Origin: Blochmannia endosymbiont of Camponotus sp.
GTDB taxonomy: Bacteria > Pseudomonadota > Gammaproteobacteria > Enterobacterales > Enterobacteriaceae
Direction of reading: 5' to 3'
NCBI RefSeq assembly: GCF_023586085.1
Contig: NZ_CP097757.1
Location: 716,613-780,612 of the forward strand
Length of the DNA stretch: 64,000 nucleotides
Each line of letters opens with the position of its first letter. Within the stretch, counting starts at the first letter, position 1. The notes below the pieces were generated by a model that was not told where the DNA came from, searched no databases, and worked only from the letters and a program-made list of their open reading frames with translations. Positions 15,002 through 45,186 of the stretch are shown in pieces. The position numbers and the translations under genes are program-made.

Positions 15002-16447
15002 ATGCCTCGCCAAATGAGAAGAACTAAAATTATCGCTACTCTAGGGCCTGCTACAGATAAAGATAATAACCTTGAGAAAATAATTGTTTCAGGAGCAAAT
15101 ATAGTACGACTAAACTTTTCTCATGGAGAAACAAAAGAACATTTTATCCGTGCAAAAAAAGTGCGCGAGATTGCTTCAAAACTAAGAAAATACATCGCTA
15201 TTCTAGGAGATTTACAAGGCCCTAAAATCCGTGTTTCAACTTTTCAAGGTAATAAAATATATTTAAAATCTGGAGATAACTTTTTAATTGATACTATGTT
15301 AACGAAGGATATAGGTGATCATAAATGCGTAGGTGTTGATTATGCAGAACTAGCACAAGACGTACGTTCAGGAGATTTACTTCTATTAGATGATGGGAAA
15401 ATTAAACTAAAAATAATAACAATTAATAATACTAAAATCTATACTAAAGTAATTATTGGAGGTATATTATCTAATAACAAAGGACTAAATAAATTAGGAG
15501 GTGGGCTTACAGCAAAAGCATTAACAAATAAAGATAAAATCGATATTATAACTGCCGCTCAAATTGGAGTTGACTACTTAGCAATATCATTTCCACGTAG
15601 CAGTATAGATTTAGATTTAGCGCGAAAATTAGTTGTAGACGCTGGTAGTCATGCAAAAATTGTTTCTAAAATAGAACGCGCAGAAGTAGTAGCATCCGAT
15701 GAAACAATAGATGACATTATTCATGCATCAGATGCAGTCATGGTAGCTCGGGGAGATTTAGGAGTAGAAATTGGAGAACCAGAACTAGTAGGTGTTCAAA
15801 AAAAGATAATAAAAAGAGCATGTGCTCTTAACCGAACAGTTATTACTGCAACCCAAATGATGGAATCTATGGTTCATAATTCTATGCCCACTCGTGCAGA
15901 AGTAATGGATGTGGCTAATGCAGTATTAGATGGCACTGATGCAGTTATGTTATCTGCCGAAACTGCTATAGGTCAATATCCGTCTGAAACTGTAGCAACA
16001 GTTGCAAATGTATGCCTAGGAGCGGAAAAAATTTCAAACATCAATTTTTTCACACACACCAATCAAAAAAAAAAATTTAATAACATCGAAGAAATTATAG
16101 CTATATCAGCAATGTATACTGCGAATCACTTAGAAGGAGTAAGTGCTATTATCGCTCTAACTGAATCTGAGAACACTACATTATTGATGTCTCGTATCAA
16201 TTCAAAATTACCTATTTTTGCATTAGCCCAACACAAACGCACCTTAAACATAGTTACTCTTTATAAAGGAGTCATTCCTATTTATTTTAATCGAACAGGC
16301 GATAATGTAAAAGATGCCAAATATGCTAGAAATTTATTACGCGATGAAGGATTTCTCATTTCTGGAGAATTAGTAGTTATAATACAAAACGACATATACA
16401 ATAAATGTGATATTATGAACATAAGCCATATCTTACAAGTAGAATAA
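15002..16447 (+). CDS. pykA: Pyruvate kinase II
   Basis: Catalyses phosphoenolpyruvate plus ADP to pyruvate plus ATP. It has 481 residues (E. coli PykA 480) and is nearer PykA than PykF along its length ([23 protein letters not shown]). Visible are [18 protein letters not shown], the RGDLGVEIG metal/substrate block and the TATQMMESM motif. AAGGA lies 7 nt before ATG 15002. An A11 run at 16065-16075 inside the gene is in frame (NQKKKKFNN), a possible slippage site. PEP is also the phosphate donor for the mannose PTS. Confidence 0.96.
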
Positions 16448-27066: not shown

Positions 27067-28044
27067 TCACTCTATTATGGCTTGGTGTAAGTCATGTATA
27101 TTAATTGACCCTACCAACGTTCCAACTTTATCCACCACTGGAGCTGCAGCTATTTTTCGTTGATACAGTGCTTTTAATGCTACGCTTGCGCGCCATTCTT
27201 TTGGAATACGATATCCAGGCTTAGTCATTGCAATATCAATAGGGTCATCAAGAGATTTACCTTTAACTATCCAACGTCTTAAATCTCCGTCAGTAAACAC
27301 CCCTATAACACGAATATGATTGTCGCATACAGCAGTCAATCCGAGCCCAGTACGACTTAATTCAAACATTGCATCCATTACTGTCACCTCCCAAAAAACT
27401 TTGGAAATATGTTCCCCAGTACGCATTAAATGATGTACGCAATTGAGTAATTGAACTCCTAATCTACCTCCTGGATGAGATCTAGCAAATTGTTCTAAAC
27501 TAAATCCTCTATATCTCATAAGAGCTATTGTTAATGCATCCCCCATCATTAAAGTATTAACTGTGCTAGAAGTAGGAGCTAGTTCCATGGGGCAAGCTTC
27601 TCTTTTTATCTTAATATTAAGCACACACGTAGCCCCTTTAGCTAAAGGAGAACTAACATCACCAGTAAATGCGATCACAGGAATCCCACTTTCTACTAAG
27701 AATGGCATTAAAGTAATTATTTCACAGGCACGACCCGAATAAGAAATAAATATCACTACATCTTGCGCTCCAATCATACCTAAATCACCATGCAAAGCTT
27801 CTGCAGGATGAACAAAAAAAGCAGGAGTACCCGTGCTTGCTAAAGAAGCGGCAATTTTTTTCCCAATATGGCCTGATTTACCTATACCAGAAACCGCCAC
27901 CTTTCCTGTACAATTCAATAATATATGACAAGCAAAAACTATGCTTTCATCTAACCTACCCAGCATTCTTTGAGCTTCATTAATTTCGATCTCTAAAGTT
28001 TCTTTAGCAAATTCCAATAGCAATGCGTCATTAACTATTACCAT
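27067..28044 (-). CDS. gutQ: Arabinose 5-phosphate isomerase GutQ
   Basis: Interconverts ribulose 5-phosphate and arabinose 5-phosphate, the precursor of Kdo for lipopolysaccharide. It has 325 residues from the chosen start. A SIS sugar isomerase domain (about 30-180: SGIGKSGHIGKKIAASLASTGTPAFFVHPAEALHGDLGMI, then EACPMELAPTSSTVNTLMMGDAL) is followed by two CBS domains. It resembles E. coli GutQ more than KdsD: FARSHPGGRLG, HHLMR, MDAMFELSRTGLGL, GDLRRWIV and IAAAPVVD agree with GutQ. Of the two paralogues in E. coli it may be the only one left here. The frame is open to 28092; ATG 28044 is preferred from alignment, with a weak ribosome site. Confidence 0.88.
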   Translation of the reverse strand: MVIVNDALLLEFAKETLEIEINEAQRMLGRLDESIVFACHILLNCTGKVAVSGIGKSGHIGKKIAASLASTGTPAFFVHPAEALHGDLGMIGAQDVVIFISYSGRACEIITLMPFLVESGIPVIAFTGDVSSPLAKGATCVLNIKIKREACPMELAPTSSTVNTLMMGDALTIALMRYRGFSLEQFARSHPGGRLGVQLLNCVHHLMRTGEHISKVFWEVTVMDAMFELSRTGLGLTAVCDNHIRVIGVFTDGDLRRWIVKGKSLDDPIDIAMTKPGYRIPKEWRASVALKALYQRKIAAAPVVDKVGTLVGSINIHDLHQAIIE

Positions 28045-28502
28045 AGTTATTAAATAATCAATTTCATAATATAACACTGTTAAATAATTCATATCATTAA
28101 ATATGAATTAAATCCTTCTTCTGGAAATTTCGAAAAATCTGTTTCTATAGATACTATACAAAAACAATAAATACTCAAAATGTACTTATATTCACTTGCT
28201 TAACCCCAACCAAGACACACAATAATATTTTATTATTAAAACAGAAAAATACACAAATATTTTAATCAAATATTGAAATGTAACATACATAATAACATAT
28301 ATTGAGATCGTTTATTATCGATATAACGCTGTTATTAAATTAATAATAATATACTAGACATAATATTGCTTATATTTTTTGTAAGATTACCACCCTTCCC
28401 GATACTACTTTATATATAAATAAAGTATCTTACTTTTATATATTAATTCATTACGAATGAACTGAAATAAATATATCAATACAAATCAACTTTCCATTAA
28501 AT
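28045..28502. other. Spacer between gutQ and tmaR
   Basis: About 460 bp upstream of gutQ and downstream of tmaR, both on the minus strand. No coding remnant was recognised. It should contain the gutQ promoter. Confidence 0.45.
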
Positions 28503-29211: not shown

Positions 29212-29217
29212 ATGTTA

Positions 29218-30704
29218 ATGAATAAAAATACTAAAAATCCTAGTTTTTTTTTTATGATTATGAAACTTTTGGAACAAATCCGGCGCTAGACAGACCAGCA
29301 CAATTTGCTGGAATTCGTACTAACGATACATTAACTCCCATAGAAGAAGAAAAAATATTATTTTGTCGCTTGTCAAACGATTATCTTCCTGACCCAAAAT
29401 CGGTACTTATTACAAAAATTACTCCTCAAGATACTTTACATAACGGTTTAATAGAACCTGAATTCGCCCGTCGTATCAATCAAATATTCTGTATACCCAA
29501 AACTTGCATACTTGGATATAATAATATTCATTTTGATGATGAATTCAGTAGAAATATTTTTTATAGAAATTTTTATGATCCTTATATATGGGCTTATCAA
29601 CAAGGAAACTCACGCTGGGATTTATTACATGTATTACGTGCTTATTATTCGCTATGTCCAAATGGGATTAAATGGCCATTAAATAATCAGAATAAACCTA
29701 GTTTTCGTCTAAAAGATTTAACGCAAGCAAACGCTATACAACACTCTAACGCTCATGACGCTATGTCAGATGTATATGCTACTTTAGAGTTAACAAAATT
29801 GACTAAAAGAGCTCAACCACAACTATTTCAGTTCTTATTTAACCATCGTACTAAATACCAACTGAAAAAAATAATCGATTTAGAAACTATGCGACCTCTA
29901 ATATTTATAACTAAAAAAATTAACAATAAATATCAGAATTTTTTAACCTATATAGCCCCAATTACTTGGCACCCTACAAATTCTAATATTTTAATCGCAT
30001 GTGATTTAAATGCAAATATTGATACTTTGTTACATTTAAATATAAATACAATATATCAAAAATTATATTCCAATCGTACGGCAATATATGATGTATTAAA
30101 AAATATACCATTACAACTGATCCGATTAAATACATGCCCCACTTTAATACCAATAAGTTTTTTTAATAAAAATAACATCAATATGAATTATTCCACACAG
30201 TTTTATAGCAATTATCAACATTGTTCAAAAAATTTAAATTTTCTCAGAATTTATGAAAATAGCGTTCATTTACGTAAAAAAATAAATACACTATATACTA
30301 TCATTGAATCATACATACGTCTAAAAGCTTTACGTCACAACTCCCATGTGGATTCTCAACTATATCATGGATTTTTTAATAATTATGATCGAAAAATAAT
30401 CTTAAATATCCAAAAAACTCATCCAAAAAATTTAAAAAATTTATGTACCGATAATGTTGATCGTCGCTTAAAACTATTATTGTACTATTATAGAGCTCGT
30501 AACTTTCCTAGCACTTTAGATCATCAAGAACAAAAAGAATGGTTAAATTATATAAAAAATAAATTATTTAATCACAGTCAATCAAAATCTTATAACGATA
30601 AATTGAACATACTTTTATCAATCTATAGCTATGATGAACAAAAAACTAAACTTCTACATTTATTACAAAAATATTATCAGCACCTTTATGAAGAGGTGCT
30701 TTAA
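29218..30704 (+). pseudogene. sbcB: Exonuclease I, frameshifted at a T10 run near its start
   Basis: Encodes the 3'-5' single-strand DNA exonuclease SbcB, but the frame is broken. From ATG 29218 (or 29212, same frame) translation gives MNKNTKNPSFFF, then ATGATTATG and a stop at about 29287-29289. The conserved frame, starting after an in-frame TAG at 29241, reads YDYETFGTNPALDRPAQFAG... to the end at 30704, aligning with E. coli through SNAHDAMSDVYAT and the C-terminal domain. The break lies in ten T (29244-29253). One extra T, or a -1 ribosomal shift on U UUU UUU, joins SFFF to YDYETFG, matching E. coli STFLFHDYETFG. The corrected protein has about 495 residues (E. coli 475). A restart at TTG 29370 would lose the catalytic Asp/Glu of DYE. 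It may be expressed by slippage; the rest of the frame is intact. Confidence 0.85.
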
Positions 30705-34528: not shown

Positions 34529-35599
34529 ATGTTTCATAAAATTTTGTTTATAGATCGAGATGGAACTCTCATTAACGAACCAAAAGACAATTTTCAAGTT
34601 GATTCTTTAGATAAGTTCTCATTAGAACCACATGTTATTTCTGCTCTTATAGCTCTGAAAAGTATAGGTTTTGAATTTGTTATAGTTACTAATCAAAATG
34701 GACTAGGAAGCGTTTCATTTCCCAAAGAAAAATTTGATGAACTACATTATCTAATGATTAAAATATTTCAATCTCAAGGTATTACGTTTAATCAAATATT
34801 AATTTGCCCTCATTTTCCTGAAGAACAATGTAGTTGTCGAAAACCAAAAACTGCTTTAGTAAATCCTTGGTTAATTGATAACAGATTAAATAAATTTAAT
34901 AGTTATGTCATTGGAGATCGAGATACTGATATGATTTTAGCAACCAATATGGGTATCCAAGGAATACAGTATCATCGTATTAATTTTGGTTGGGAAAAAA
35001 TTAAAAACTATTTAATACAACATTACAGATCAGCACATATTCATCGTACCACTGAAGAAACTAATATAGATATAAAGATATGGTTAGATCAAAATGATAA
35101 AAGTTATATTGATACTGGAATTAATTTTTTTAATCATATGTTACAGCAAATAGCTATCCATGCTGGATTACGTATGAACATTATAGCAAAAGGCGATTTA
35201 TATATAGACGATCATCATACTGTTGAAGATACTGCTTTAACATTAGGAGAAGCTTTAACCGCAGCACTAAACAATAAATGTGGTATTAAAAGATTTGGAT
35301 TCACCTTACCTATGGATGAAAGTATTGCACAATGTATATTAGATCTTTCTGGACGAACATACTTTCACTATCAAGCTAAATATAATTTTCAAAAAATAGG
35401 AGATCTTAGCACTGAAATGATAGAACATTTTTTCCGTTCATTATCTTCAAAAATGAGCTGTGCTTTACATTTGCAAGCAACCGGTGATAACGACCACCAT
35501 AAAGCAGAAAGTTTATTTAAATCTTTTGGCCGAGCATTGCGCCAAGCTATTTATATAGATAATAATAATATACCAAGCTCTAAAGGAACATTGCTATGA
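34529..35599 (+). CDS. hisB: Bifunctional histidinol-phosphatase / imidazoleglycerol-phosphate dehydratase
   Basis: It has 356 residues (E. coli 355). The N-terminal HAD phosphatase (about 1-165) has FIDRDGTLI with the nucleophile Asp, a CxHx(n)CxC-type zinc loop (CPHFPEEQCSCRKPK) and GDRDTDM. The C-terminal dehydratase has the metal-binding repeats DDHHTVEDT and GDNDHHKAES and the HMLQQIAIHAGL stretch. The stop codon overlaps the hisH start by 4 nt. Confidence 0.97.
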   Translation: MFHKILFIDRDGTLINEPKDNFQVDSLDKFSLEPHVISALIALKSIGFEFVIVTNQNGLGSVSFPKEKFDELHYLMIKIFQSQGITFNQILICPHFPEEQCSCRKPKTALVNPWLIDNRLNKFNSYVIGDRDTDMILATNMGIQGIQYHRINFGWEKIKNYLIQHYRSAHIHRTTEETNIDIKIWLDQNDKSYIDTGINFFNHMLQQIAIHAGLRMNIIAKGDLYIDDHHTVEDTALTLGEALTAALNNKCGIKRFGFTLPMDESIAQCILDLSGRTYFHYQAKYNFQKIGDLSTEMIEHFFRSLSSKMSCALHLQATGDNDHHKAESLFKSFGRALRQAIYIDNNNIPSSKGTLL

Positions 35600-36185
35600 A
35601 TATAGTTATTATAAATACCAATTGCTCTAATTTATTTTCTGTAAAAACCATGCTACATAAACTCGGACACAATCCAATAATAAGTGATAAAGTTGATATT
35701 ATATCTAAAGCAGATAAACTGTTTTTACCGGGAGTTGGTACCGCCGCAGCCGCAATGAAGCAATTAAAAAAAAAAATCTAGTTACGTTAATACAAAATTG
35801 TACTAAACCAATATTAGGTATTTGTTTGGGAATGCAGTTATTTGGGGCTCATAGCGACGAAAATAATGGCATCAAAACCTTAAAAATTATTAATGTACCC
35901 GTTAAACGTATGAAGTACTATGGTTTTCCGCTACCACATATGGGATGGAATACTGTTACTGTTTCTAAAAAAAATTCTTTATTTGATGGTATAAAGAAAA
36001 ACAATTATTTCTATTTTGCACATAGTTATTTAATTGAAATATGTCATATAACCATTGCTGAAACAAATTACGGCCAATCATTTAGTTCGGTTATAGAATA
36101 TAATAATTTTTTTGGTGTACAGTTTCATCCAGAAAAATCAGGCATTCCTGGACAACAATTAGTAAAAAATTTTTTGGAGATTTAA
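35596..36185 (+). pseudogene. hisH: Imidazole glycerol phosphate synthase glutaminase subunit, split at an A11 run
   Basis: HisH supplies ammonia from glutamine to HisF. The first part (35596-35781) runs MNIVIINTNCSNLFSV...GVGTAAAAMKQLKKKI and stops at TAG right after eleven A (35766-35776). The remainder continues in the -1 frame: NLVTLIQNCTKPILGICLGMQLFG..., with the catalytic cysteine of GICLGMQ and HPE in VQFHPEKSG, to 36185. One extra A (or two fewer) would give a 196-residue protein, the exact E. coli length. No other damage is visible, so either the break is very recent or transcriptional or ribosomal slippage on the A run makes some full product. HisF can use free ammonia without HisH. 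Flanked tightly by hisB (4-nt overlap) and hisA (3 nt). Confidence 0.9.
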
Positions 36186-36188
36186 TTT

Positions 36189-36929
36189 GTGATTATTCCC
36201 GCGTTAGATATTATTAACGGAAAAATAGTTAGACTGTATCAGGGATCTTATCATATGAAAACTAATTACGGAAACCCTGTATCATTATTAAGACAATATA
36301 TACGCCAGGGAGCAAAAATGATACATTTAGTTGATTTAACTGGCGCACAGAATACAGCAAAAAAACAAAGTTTATTAATTAGTCAATTAATAAAAGAAGC
36401 TCATCCTTCATCAAAGATACAAATAGGAGGAGGTATACGTAATACCACAGATATAGAATTTCTCATAGAATCAGGAGCAACACGTATAGTATTCGGTTCT
36501 GTAGCAATTACAAATCCAAAAATGGTAAAGAAATGGTTTAAATATTTTGATCCAAATCATTTGGTTTTAGCAGTAGATATACGCATTTCTCCTACAAAAG
36601 ATCGAAAAATAGCTATTCACGGTTGGCAAAAAGAAACTAATTTGAAATTAGAGCAAATAATAGAAGAATATTATGCTATAGGATTAAAACATGTTCTTTG
36701 TACAGATATTTCTAAAGATGGAACTTTATTAGGTAGTAACATATCTTTATATCAATCCGTATGTCGTTCTTGGCCAAAAATATCATTTCAATCATCTGGA
36801 GGCGTTTATAAACTCACAGAAATCTCCAAATTACGTTGTGCTGGAGTCAAAGCAATAATTATTGGTCGTGCTTTTTTAGAAAATAAATTTACTGTTGCTG
36901 AGGCAATATCATGTTGGCAAAACGAATAA
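36189..36929 (+). CDS. hisA: ProFAR isomerase HisA
   Basis: TIM-barrel isomerase that opens the ribosyl ring of ProFAR to give PRFAR. It has 246 residues (E. coli 245). [18 protein letters not shown] carries the N-terminal catalytic Asp, [17 protein letters not shown] and the second half [13 protein letters not shown] the C-terminal catalytic Asp and phosphate loops. The start is GTG at 36189 with GGAG 9 nt upstream inside hisH. Overlaps hisF by 19 nt. Confidence 0.96.
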
Positions 36930-37687
36930 TTCCTTGTCTTGATGTAGTTAATAATAAAGTAATAAAAGGGGTGCAATTTAAAAATCACAAAATTGTAGGG
37001 GATATTTTAGATTTAGCAAACCGTTATGAAAGAGAAGGAGCTGATGAATTAGTATTTTATGATATTACAGCATCACCTAAAAACCAAGTAGTAGATAAGA
37101 AATGGATTTCTCGAATTGCCGAAATAATAAATATTCCATTTTGTGTTGCAGGAGGAATTAGTACAGTAAAACAGGCTAAACAAATTCTTGCATCTGGAGC
37201 TGATAAGATTTCAATTAATTCTCCTGCTTTAATAAACCCAACACTAATCCAAAGATTAGCTGATCATTTAGGTACACAATGTGTTGTAGTTAGTATAGAC
37301 ACTTGGCATAATCCTAAAAAAAAAATATATCAAGTACAATGCTACACTGGAGATAGTTATCGCACAAAAACTACAACATGGAAAACATTAGATTGGGTTA
37401 AAAAAGTACAAGAATATGGGGCTGGAGAAATAGTATTAAACATGATGAATCAAGACGGCATGAAAAATGGTTATGATCTAGATCAATTAAAACACATTAG
37501 AAAGCATTGCAAAATTCCGCTCATAGCTTCTGGAGGAGCTGGTACTTATCAGCATTTTTTGGAAGCTTTTCGTGATGCTGATGTAGATGGCGCATTAGCA
37601 GCTTCAGTCTTTCATAAAAAAATTATTGATATTCATAAGTTAAAACAATTCTTATCTAAAGAAGGAATACAAATTAGATTATGTTAA
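36911..37687 (+). CDS. hisF: Imidazole glycerol phosphate synthase cyclase subunit
   Basis: TIM-barrel cyclase that combines PRFAR with ammonia to give IGP and AICAR. It has 258 residues, as in E. coli. Catalytic D11 is in IIPCLDV and the second Asp in [23 protein letters not shown] and the [12 protein letters not shown] phosphate loops are intact. A run of 10 A (37316-37325) is in frame (NPKKKIYQV). It can work with free ammonia, which matters because its glutaminase partner hisH is broken upstream. Confidence 0.97.
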
Positions 37688-44528: not shown

Positions 44529-44822
44529 ATGTTGACAATTAAAGCTAACTTGCGTATACGTCAAAAAAAAAGTGCAACAAGACGCTTACGTAAACAAAAT
44601 AAATGTCCAGCTATTATCTATAGAAAAGATAACGAACAAAGTTTATCCATTATATTAAATCAAAATGATATTTCGCATCCTGATTCTGTGGCACAATTAT
44701 ATAAAAATAATCTAATTTTGTTATTTATTGAAAATAAGGAACCTATTATAGTTAAAGTACAAGAAATACAATATCATCCTTTTAAGCTTAAACCAATTCA
44801 TATTGATTTCATCCGTATTTAA
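44529..44822 (+). CDS. rplY: 50S ribosomal protein L25
   Basis: Binds 5S rRNA in the large subunit. It has 97 residues, the short form as in E. coli (94), without the Ctc extension. TRRLRKQNKCPAIIYRK and the C-terminal VQEIQYHPFKLKPIHIDFIRI match closely. ATG at 44529; a run of 9 A in codons 13-16 stays in frame. In E. coli rplY and the proL tRNA gene are also close together, as here. Confidence 0.93.
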   Translation: MLTIKANLRIRQKKSATRRLRKQNKCPAIIYRKDNEQSLSIILNQNDISHPDSVAQLYKNNLILLFIENKEPIIVKVQEIQYHPFKLKPIHIDFIRI

Positions 44823-45186
44823 TACTGATATCAAAATGATACGTTGATGTATAATGATTAACTATCAAATAATGATTATTTAAATTGAATCATAGGGCTG
44901 TTTCTTTATCAAGATAAAGAAACAGCATAAAGATACTACACGTTAAATTTATTTATTATAATATACATTCTACTAAATAATCTATTTTATAGTAATAAAC
45001 ACTCATATTATGTACATTTATCTTTATATTAATAAAATAAGATAAGACTGCAAATGCAACATGCTATATGAAATATAAGATTTAACTTTTACAAGTAAAA
45101 ATTTTTTATTTTATATAGTATATATACTTATGTTTTAAAGATTAATCTTCTTATTTTTATGATTTTTTCATAACAAAACCAAAAAA
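44823..45186. other. Spacer between rplY and tRNA-Pro
   Basis: Holds the hairpin described at 44897-44926. Nothing else recognised. Confidence 0.5.
44897..44926 (+). terminator. 14-bp hairpin after rplY
   Basis: Arms 44897-44910 and 44913-44926 pair perfectly (GCTGTTTCTTTATC and its complement) with a 2-nt formal loop, 74 nt after the rplY stop. It lacks a U tract on the plus strand, so it may protect the transcript end rather than terminate. Confidence 0.5.

Follow-up and report, generated by a model that had tools for sequence, protein, structure and literature searches.

The hisH locus

The window analysed here is the terminal 64 kb of one 780,612-base contig from the ant symbiont Blochmannia (Blochmanniella), and its source genome (G000) was compared within a set of 14 Blochmannia genomes (G000 to G013). 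The genes around hisH follow the order hisB, hisH, hisA, hisF (Table 1). As read from the sequence and its open reading frames, hisH occupies positions 35596-36185 of the forward strand and is split at a run of eleven adenines (A11), one base fewer than an intact frame would need. The zero frame begins with ATG at 35596 and ends after 61 codons at a TAG, and the rest of the gene past the tract is open in the -1 frame up to 36185, where it carries the motifs GICLGMQ and HPEKS. Adding one base gives 5 codons across the tract, preceded by 56 and followed by 135; the total of 196 equals that of the unbroken orthologues of G003 and G010 and of E. coli HisH. The initial annotation had described a gene split by a single base in A11 and otherwise undamaged, with a stop right after the run, the catalytic motifs kept in the -1 frame and 196 residues restored by one added A; all of this was confirmed, with the tract and the stop at the positions listed in Table 1.

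Both pieces match TIGR01855, the HisH model (1.3e-12 for the first and 8.5e-44 for the second), and the second piece also aligns with the solved HisH structures PDB 4gud and 1gpw. GICLGMQ and HPE are found in the HisH of all 14 genomes, and the TIGR01855 match fits a class I glutamine amidotransferase; we take the Cys of the first motif and the His and Glu of the second to be the catalytic residues. Stop codons are absent from both pieces in 14 of 14 genomes, and a search of positions 35400-36300 against Rfam returned no match up to E = 1.

Table 1. Coordinates of hisH, its neighbours and a second frameshifted gene in the window
Feature	Position	Strand	Description
sbcB (exonuclease I), second frameshift	T10 29244..29253	+	short zero frame 29212-29289, long frame 29253-30704
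hisB	34529..35599	+	stop overlaps hisH start
hisH, pre-tract part	35596..35763	+	56 codons, zero frame; TIGR01855 positions 1-54; dN/dS 0.102
A11 tract in hisH	35766..35776	+	exactly A11, same frame change in 10/14 genomes
Zero-frame stop TAG in hisH	35779..35781	+	TAG or TAA here in 10/10 frameshifted genomes
hisH, post-tract part	35778..36185	+	135 codons + stop, -1 frame; GICLGMQ, HPEKS; dN/dS 0.102
hisA	36189..36929	+	start 3 bases past hisH
hisF, partner subunit of HisH	36911..37687	+	

Distribution and age of the frameshift

The frameshifted state is shared by G000, G011, G007, G005, G013, G002, G006, G008, G004 and G001, and hisH is in frame in G010 (where the A11 is preceded by G), G003, G009 and G012. 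In a tree built from 28 genes of the window (9914 amino-acid columns), rooted on G009 and G012 rather than from outside the genus, a fully supported split divides the ten frameshifted genomes from the remaining four, and G000 clusters with G011 and G007. A heading in PMC4389277 presents B. obliquus, putatively G012, as the earliest-diverging lineage sequenced. The simplest history is that the frameshift arose once, in the ancestor of the ten genomes.

Homopolymers are error-prone on several sequencing platforms, and an artefact of sequencing or assembly might be suspected in a run of this kind. Finding an identical A11 and frame change in so many genomes rules out a sequencing error private to G000. 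Length and frame agree in all ten genomes, among them G006, putatively B. pennsylvanicus, while other runs in these genomes differ, and the probability left to an artefact is negligible.

Selection on both parts of hisH

Codon models were fitted on a fixed tree. Past the tract, the 135 codons of the ten frameshifted genomes gave a dN/dS of 0.102, with 2dlnL of 241.5 against a dN/dS of 1, the kappa of the null model having been picked from a grid. The 56 codons before the tract gave the same value of 0.102. Under the same models, seven other his genes range from 0.025 (hisG) to 0.140 (hisA). Restricting the post-tract estimate to the three closest genomes gives 0.075, and to the six-genome group 0.109; lower values in the four intact genomes carry no weight, as the branches there are long and probably saturated. 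The post-tract part of hisH is under strong purifying selection in the clade. The claim that the downstream frame is selected is therefore borne out, and the comparison of run length and substitution among sister genomes proposed in the initial annotation revealed a shared A11 and substitution far from neutral.

These results bear directly on the reading of hisH as a pseudogene whose partner HisF uses free ammonia. A 2025 paper (PMC12779916) counts hisH among the inactivated genes of BSEQ (a C. vicinus symbiont), BVIC, BCHR and BMOD, and describes HisF as able to use ammonia. A post-tract dN/dS far from 1 and frames that have stayed free of stops in all ten genomes, across the full depth of the clade, leave that published reading unsupported for this clade and make it extremely improbable. 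The dN/dS excludes a pseudogene for the clade, and a single recent lineage may still lose the gene.

Conservation of both pieces would also be expected if they were made as two polypeptides, HisH-N and a re-initiated HisH-C, that assemble into an active enzyme. Between the tract and the Cys, however, the -1 frame holds no ATG, GTG or TTG in four of the ten genomes, G000 among them, and only TTG in the other six, so that this arrangement appears very unlikely.

Constancy of the tract against control tracts

The constancy of A11 in hisH was set against other tracts of the same 64 kb. We traced 51 tracts in other genes whose length is 9 or more in some member of the ten. Three of them hold at least 9 in all genomes in which they are present, and none of the 12 tracts reaching 10 in intact genes holds at least 10 in all ten. 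The value of 7 entered for the rplY tract of G011 is unreliable because rplY of that genome is itself frameshifted; this gene, for ribosomal protein L25, is split at an A9 in G011 (44577-44875 of the joined region) and in frame in G000. At the codon level, no AAA-AAA-AAA triple out of 12 in 31 genes is preserved in all ten genomes. Of 656 single AAA codons of G000, 226 are unchanged throughout the ten genomes; where an outgroup lacks Lys, the figure is 124 of 496. From these two fractions the chance that three AAA codons are jointly preserved is about 0.02-0.04, a moderate figure only.

Outside the genes, 0 of 21 non-coding runs of at least 8 are uniform in length in four close genomes, although these runs were picked as long in one genome, which biases the comparison towards seeing differences. 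From the vic3 set of this comparison, a T10/T10/T10 row that corresponds to the sbcB tract was removed, and the two rows left both vary. The 177,317 bases outside ORFs contain no run longer than 10. Runs of exactly 11 within ORFs number 19, formed by 11 in hisH (the ten frameshifted genomes and G010) and 8 in pyruvate kinase, and runs of at least 12 occur twice across the 14 regions. The pyruvate kinase tract, an in-frame A11 (16065-16075), has likewise stayed at 11 in G003 and in seven of the ten, and no frameshift accounts for its retention. A constant A11 alone is therefore no proof of slippage.

Other frameshifted genes

The whole G000 genome has nine runs of exactly A11 or T11. At three of them a gene is split (hisH, rluD and ubiH), and one frame spans the other six, including that of pyruvate kinase. 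The rluD gene (G000 417422-420434, run at 1502-1512 of that piece) has A11 in G000 and A12 in both G007 and G011, and is thus split in two different frames; in the other 11 genomes it is a single frame of at least 316 aa. The visC-like gene ubiH (G000 484404-487416, run at 1502-1512 of that piece) is split in G000 with A11 and in G007 with A10, and is in frame in G011 with A13. The tracts of rluD and ubiH vary among close relatives, whereas that of hisH is constant over a deeper clade; as both genes were picked for being split in G000, the comparison gives no rate of tract change.

A frameshift of another type affects a pabA-like gene on the minus strand (G000 104554-105142), where an extra A lies in a short AA and there is no long run. 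It is split in G000 only, one genome of 14, as would be expected if frameshifts beyond rescue are short-lived. This lone case may be an error or a recent loss.

A second frameshift in the window lies in the T10 of sbcB, and the DYETFG motif sits in the second frame of the region 29212-30704. The same T10 and frame change are present in G000, G007 and G011; the gene is in frame in the other ten genomes in which it occurs and was not found in G001. The frameshift scan missed this gene because its upstream piece is short, and the split was recognised from the sequence preceding the TTG start of the long frame; other short-ended cases may therefore have been missed; scan matches lying opposite to known genes were counted as antisense frames and removed. 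Elsewhere in the window, the ORF at 27067-28092 was considered as release factor 2, an identification rejected when a family search gave GutQ.

Proposed mechanism of rescue

Taken as a whole, hisH is very probably a working gene with an old one-base frameshift in its A11, rescued by slippage of RNA polymerase. Slippage on the tract would give a share of the transcripts one extra A, or two fewer. The corrected transcripts would encode the full-length HisH of 196 residues, and the uncorrected ones would lead to a 61-residue dead end. The proposal of the initial annotation that functional HisH is produced through slippage thus gains support, at the level of sequence, from the low dN/dS, the stop-free frames and the constant tract.

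The initial annotation had offered two mechanisms, slippage of the polymerase and -1 shifting by ribosomes. In the second, ribosomes would shift on A AAA AAA in a dnaX-like manner and produce full-length HisH from a uniform A11 mRNA. A slippery heptamer does stand in phase (TTA AAA AAA AAA ATC, then the stop) in all ten frameshifted genomes. Nevertheless, a Shine-Dalgarno-like word is absent from the 25 bases upstream of the tract in nine of them, G005 having GGAG, and downstream folds are no better than shuffled sequences (z of 0.04, -0.65 and -0.64), with compensatory changes at 0 of 25 predicted pairs. The heptamer also requires fewer A than the eleven preserved, and A_AAA_AAA is described in PMC5009743 as a weaker shift site than A_AAA_AAG in E. 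coli. Ribosomal shifting is accordingly the less supported of the two and rather improbable as the source of HisH. With no stimulator of ribosomal frameshifting found, transcriptional slippage is the best candidate mechanism, and we infer that the rescue is mainly transcriptional.

It is important to note that efficient slippage on A11 in Blochmannia does not follow directly from what has been described for the E. coli enzyme. According to PMC6260861, E. coli RNA polymerase slips by 5-10% on T7/T8, prefers T over A and slips more on longer runs, but slips little on poly(A), with almost no rescue on the runs tested and none detected below seven T or eight A. Support for the Blochmannia case comes instead from the report of a review (PMC5009743).

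The persistence of the frameshift may have a mutational basis. The lengths that would place the hisH tract in frame are 12 and 9. A likely course is that the ancestor of the clade lost one base from an in-frame run and that, runs above 11 being unstable, the frame is seldom regained, while further contraction is purged by selection. The rarity of runs of at least 12 suggests that long runs contract, so that a regained A12 would tend back to A11. At A10, correction would call for another kind of slip, and selection might act against that length. Alternatively, the frameshift could be useful in itself, with slippage on A11 acting as a fixed dosage valve that keeps HisH below HisF and makes restored in-frame lengths disfavoured. 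Such a valve, if real, would explain why none of the ten lineages has regained the frame though similar tracts vary among close relatives. We consider this bolder idea unlikely, and contraction-biased mutation of long runs accounts for the unregained frame more simply.

Implications for annotation and metabolism

Automatic annotation and the 2025 paper (PMC12779916) count genes of this kind as lost. Since hisH is under selection by the sequence test, the histidine pathway of the symbiont need not be judged impaired. Furthermore, the hisH tract keeps its A11 across ten genomes, whereas two other tracts vary among only three close relatives. This contrast may offer a simple criterion for telling frameshifted genes that are rescued from those that decay in AT-rich symbionts.

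Comparison with known systems

Frameshifts in poly(A) tracts with rescue by transcriptional slippage have been reported for Buchnera and Blochmannia (Tamas et al. 2008 PNAS; Wernegreen et al. 2010 MBE), as relayed in PMC5009743, PMC3017870, PMC4389277 and PMC4972996. The earlier work to which the initial annotation refers is confirmed by the first two of these sources. A 2016 review (PMC5009743) gives 12-50% corrected transcripts for frameshifted symbiont genes, including "a histidine biosynthetic gene" of an ant endosymbiont; this statement presumably stems from Tamas et al. 2008, a title among the references of PMC3017870. The frameshift scan showed hisH to be the only split his gene in G006, from which we deduce that the gene meant in the review is hisH, in B. 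pennsylvanicus. The phenomenon is not new in kind, then, since the kind has been published and, by the same deduction, so has the very gene. Our literature search, with most subscription journals outside its reach, found no title that compares the hisH tract over many genomes or corrects the pseudogene statement of 2025. What this analysis adds is that hisH is fixed at A11 while rluD, ubiH and non-coding runs vary, together with the second frameshift of the window, in the T10 of sbcB.

Two other cases share part of this behaviour. In dnaX of Thermus thermophilus, as in hisH, slippage on a long run alters the frame in a share of the mRNAs (PMC5009743); the long product of that gene is in frame in the DNA, whereas the long product of hisH requires slippage. 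The dnaX gene of E. coli also has a run of A that permits a -1 shift, with a stop soon after. It differs from hisH, whose run comprises eleven A and for which no conserved Shine-Dalgarno or stem-loop stimulator was found. The closest counterparts are the rescued frameshifts of Buchnera and Blochmannia, which hisH resembles in belonging to the same genus (Blochmannia), in its one-base indel within a run of at least nine A, in being otherwise open and in having been kept over time. There is no difference in kind between them, and hisH of G000 represents a further bearer of what seems to be the same inherited frameshift.
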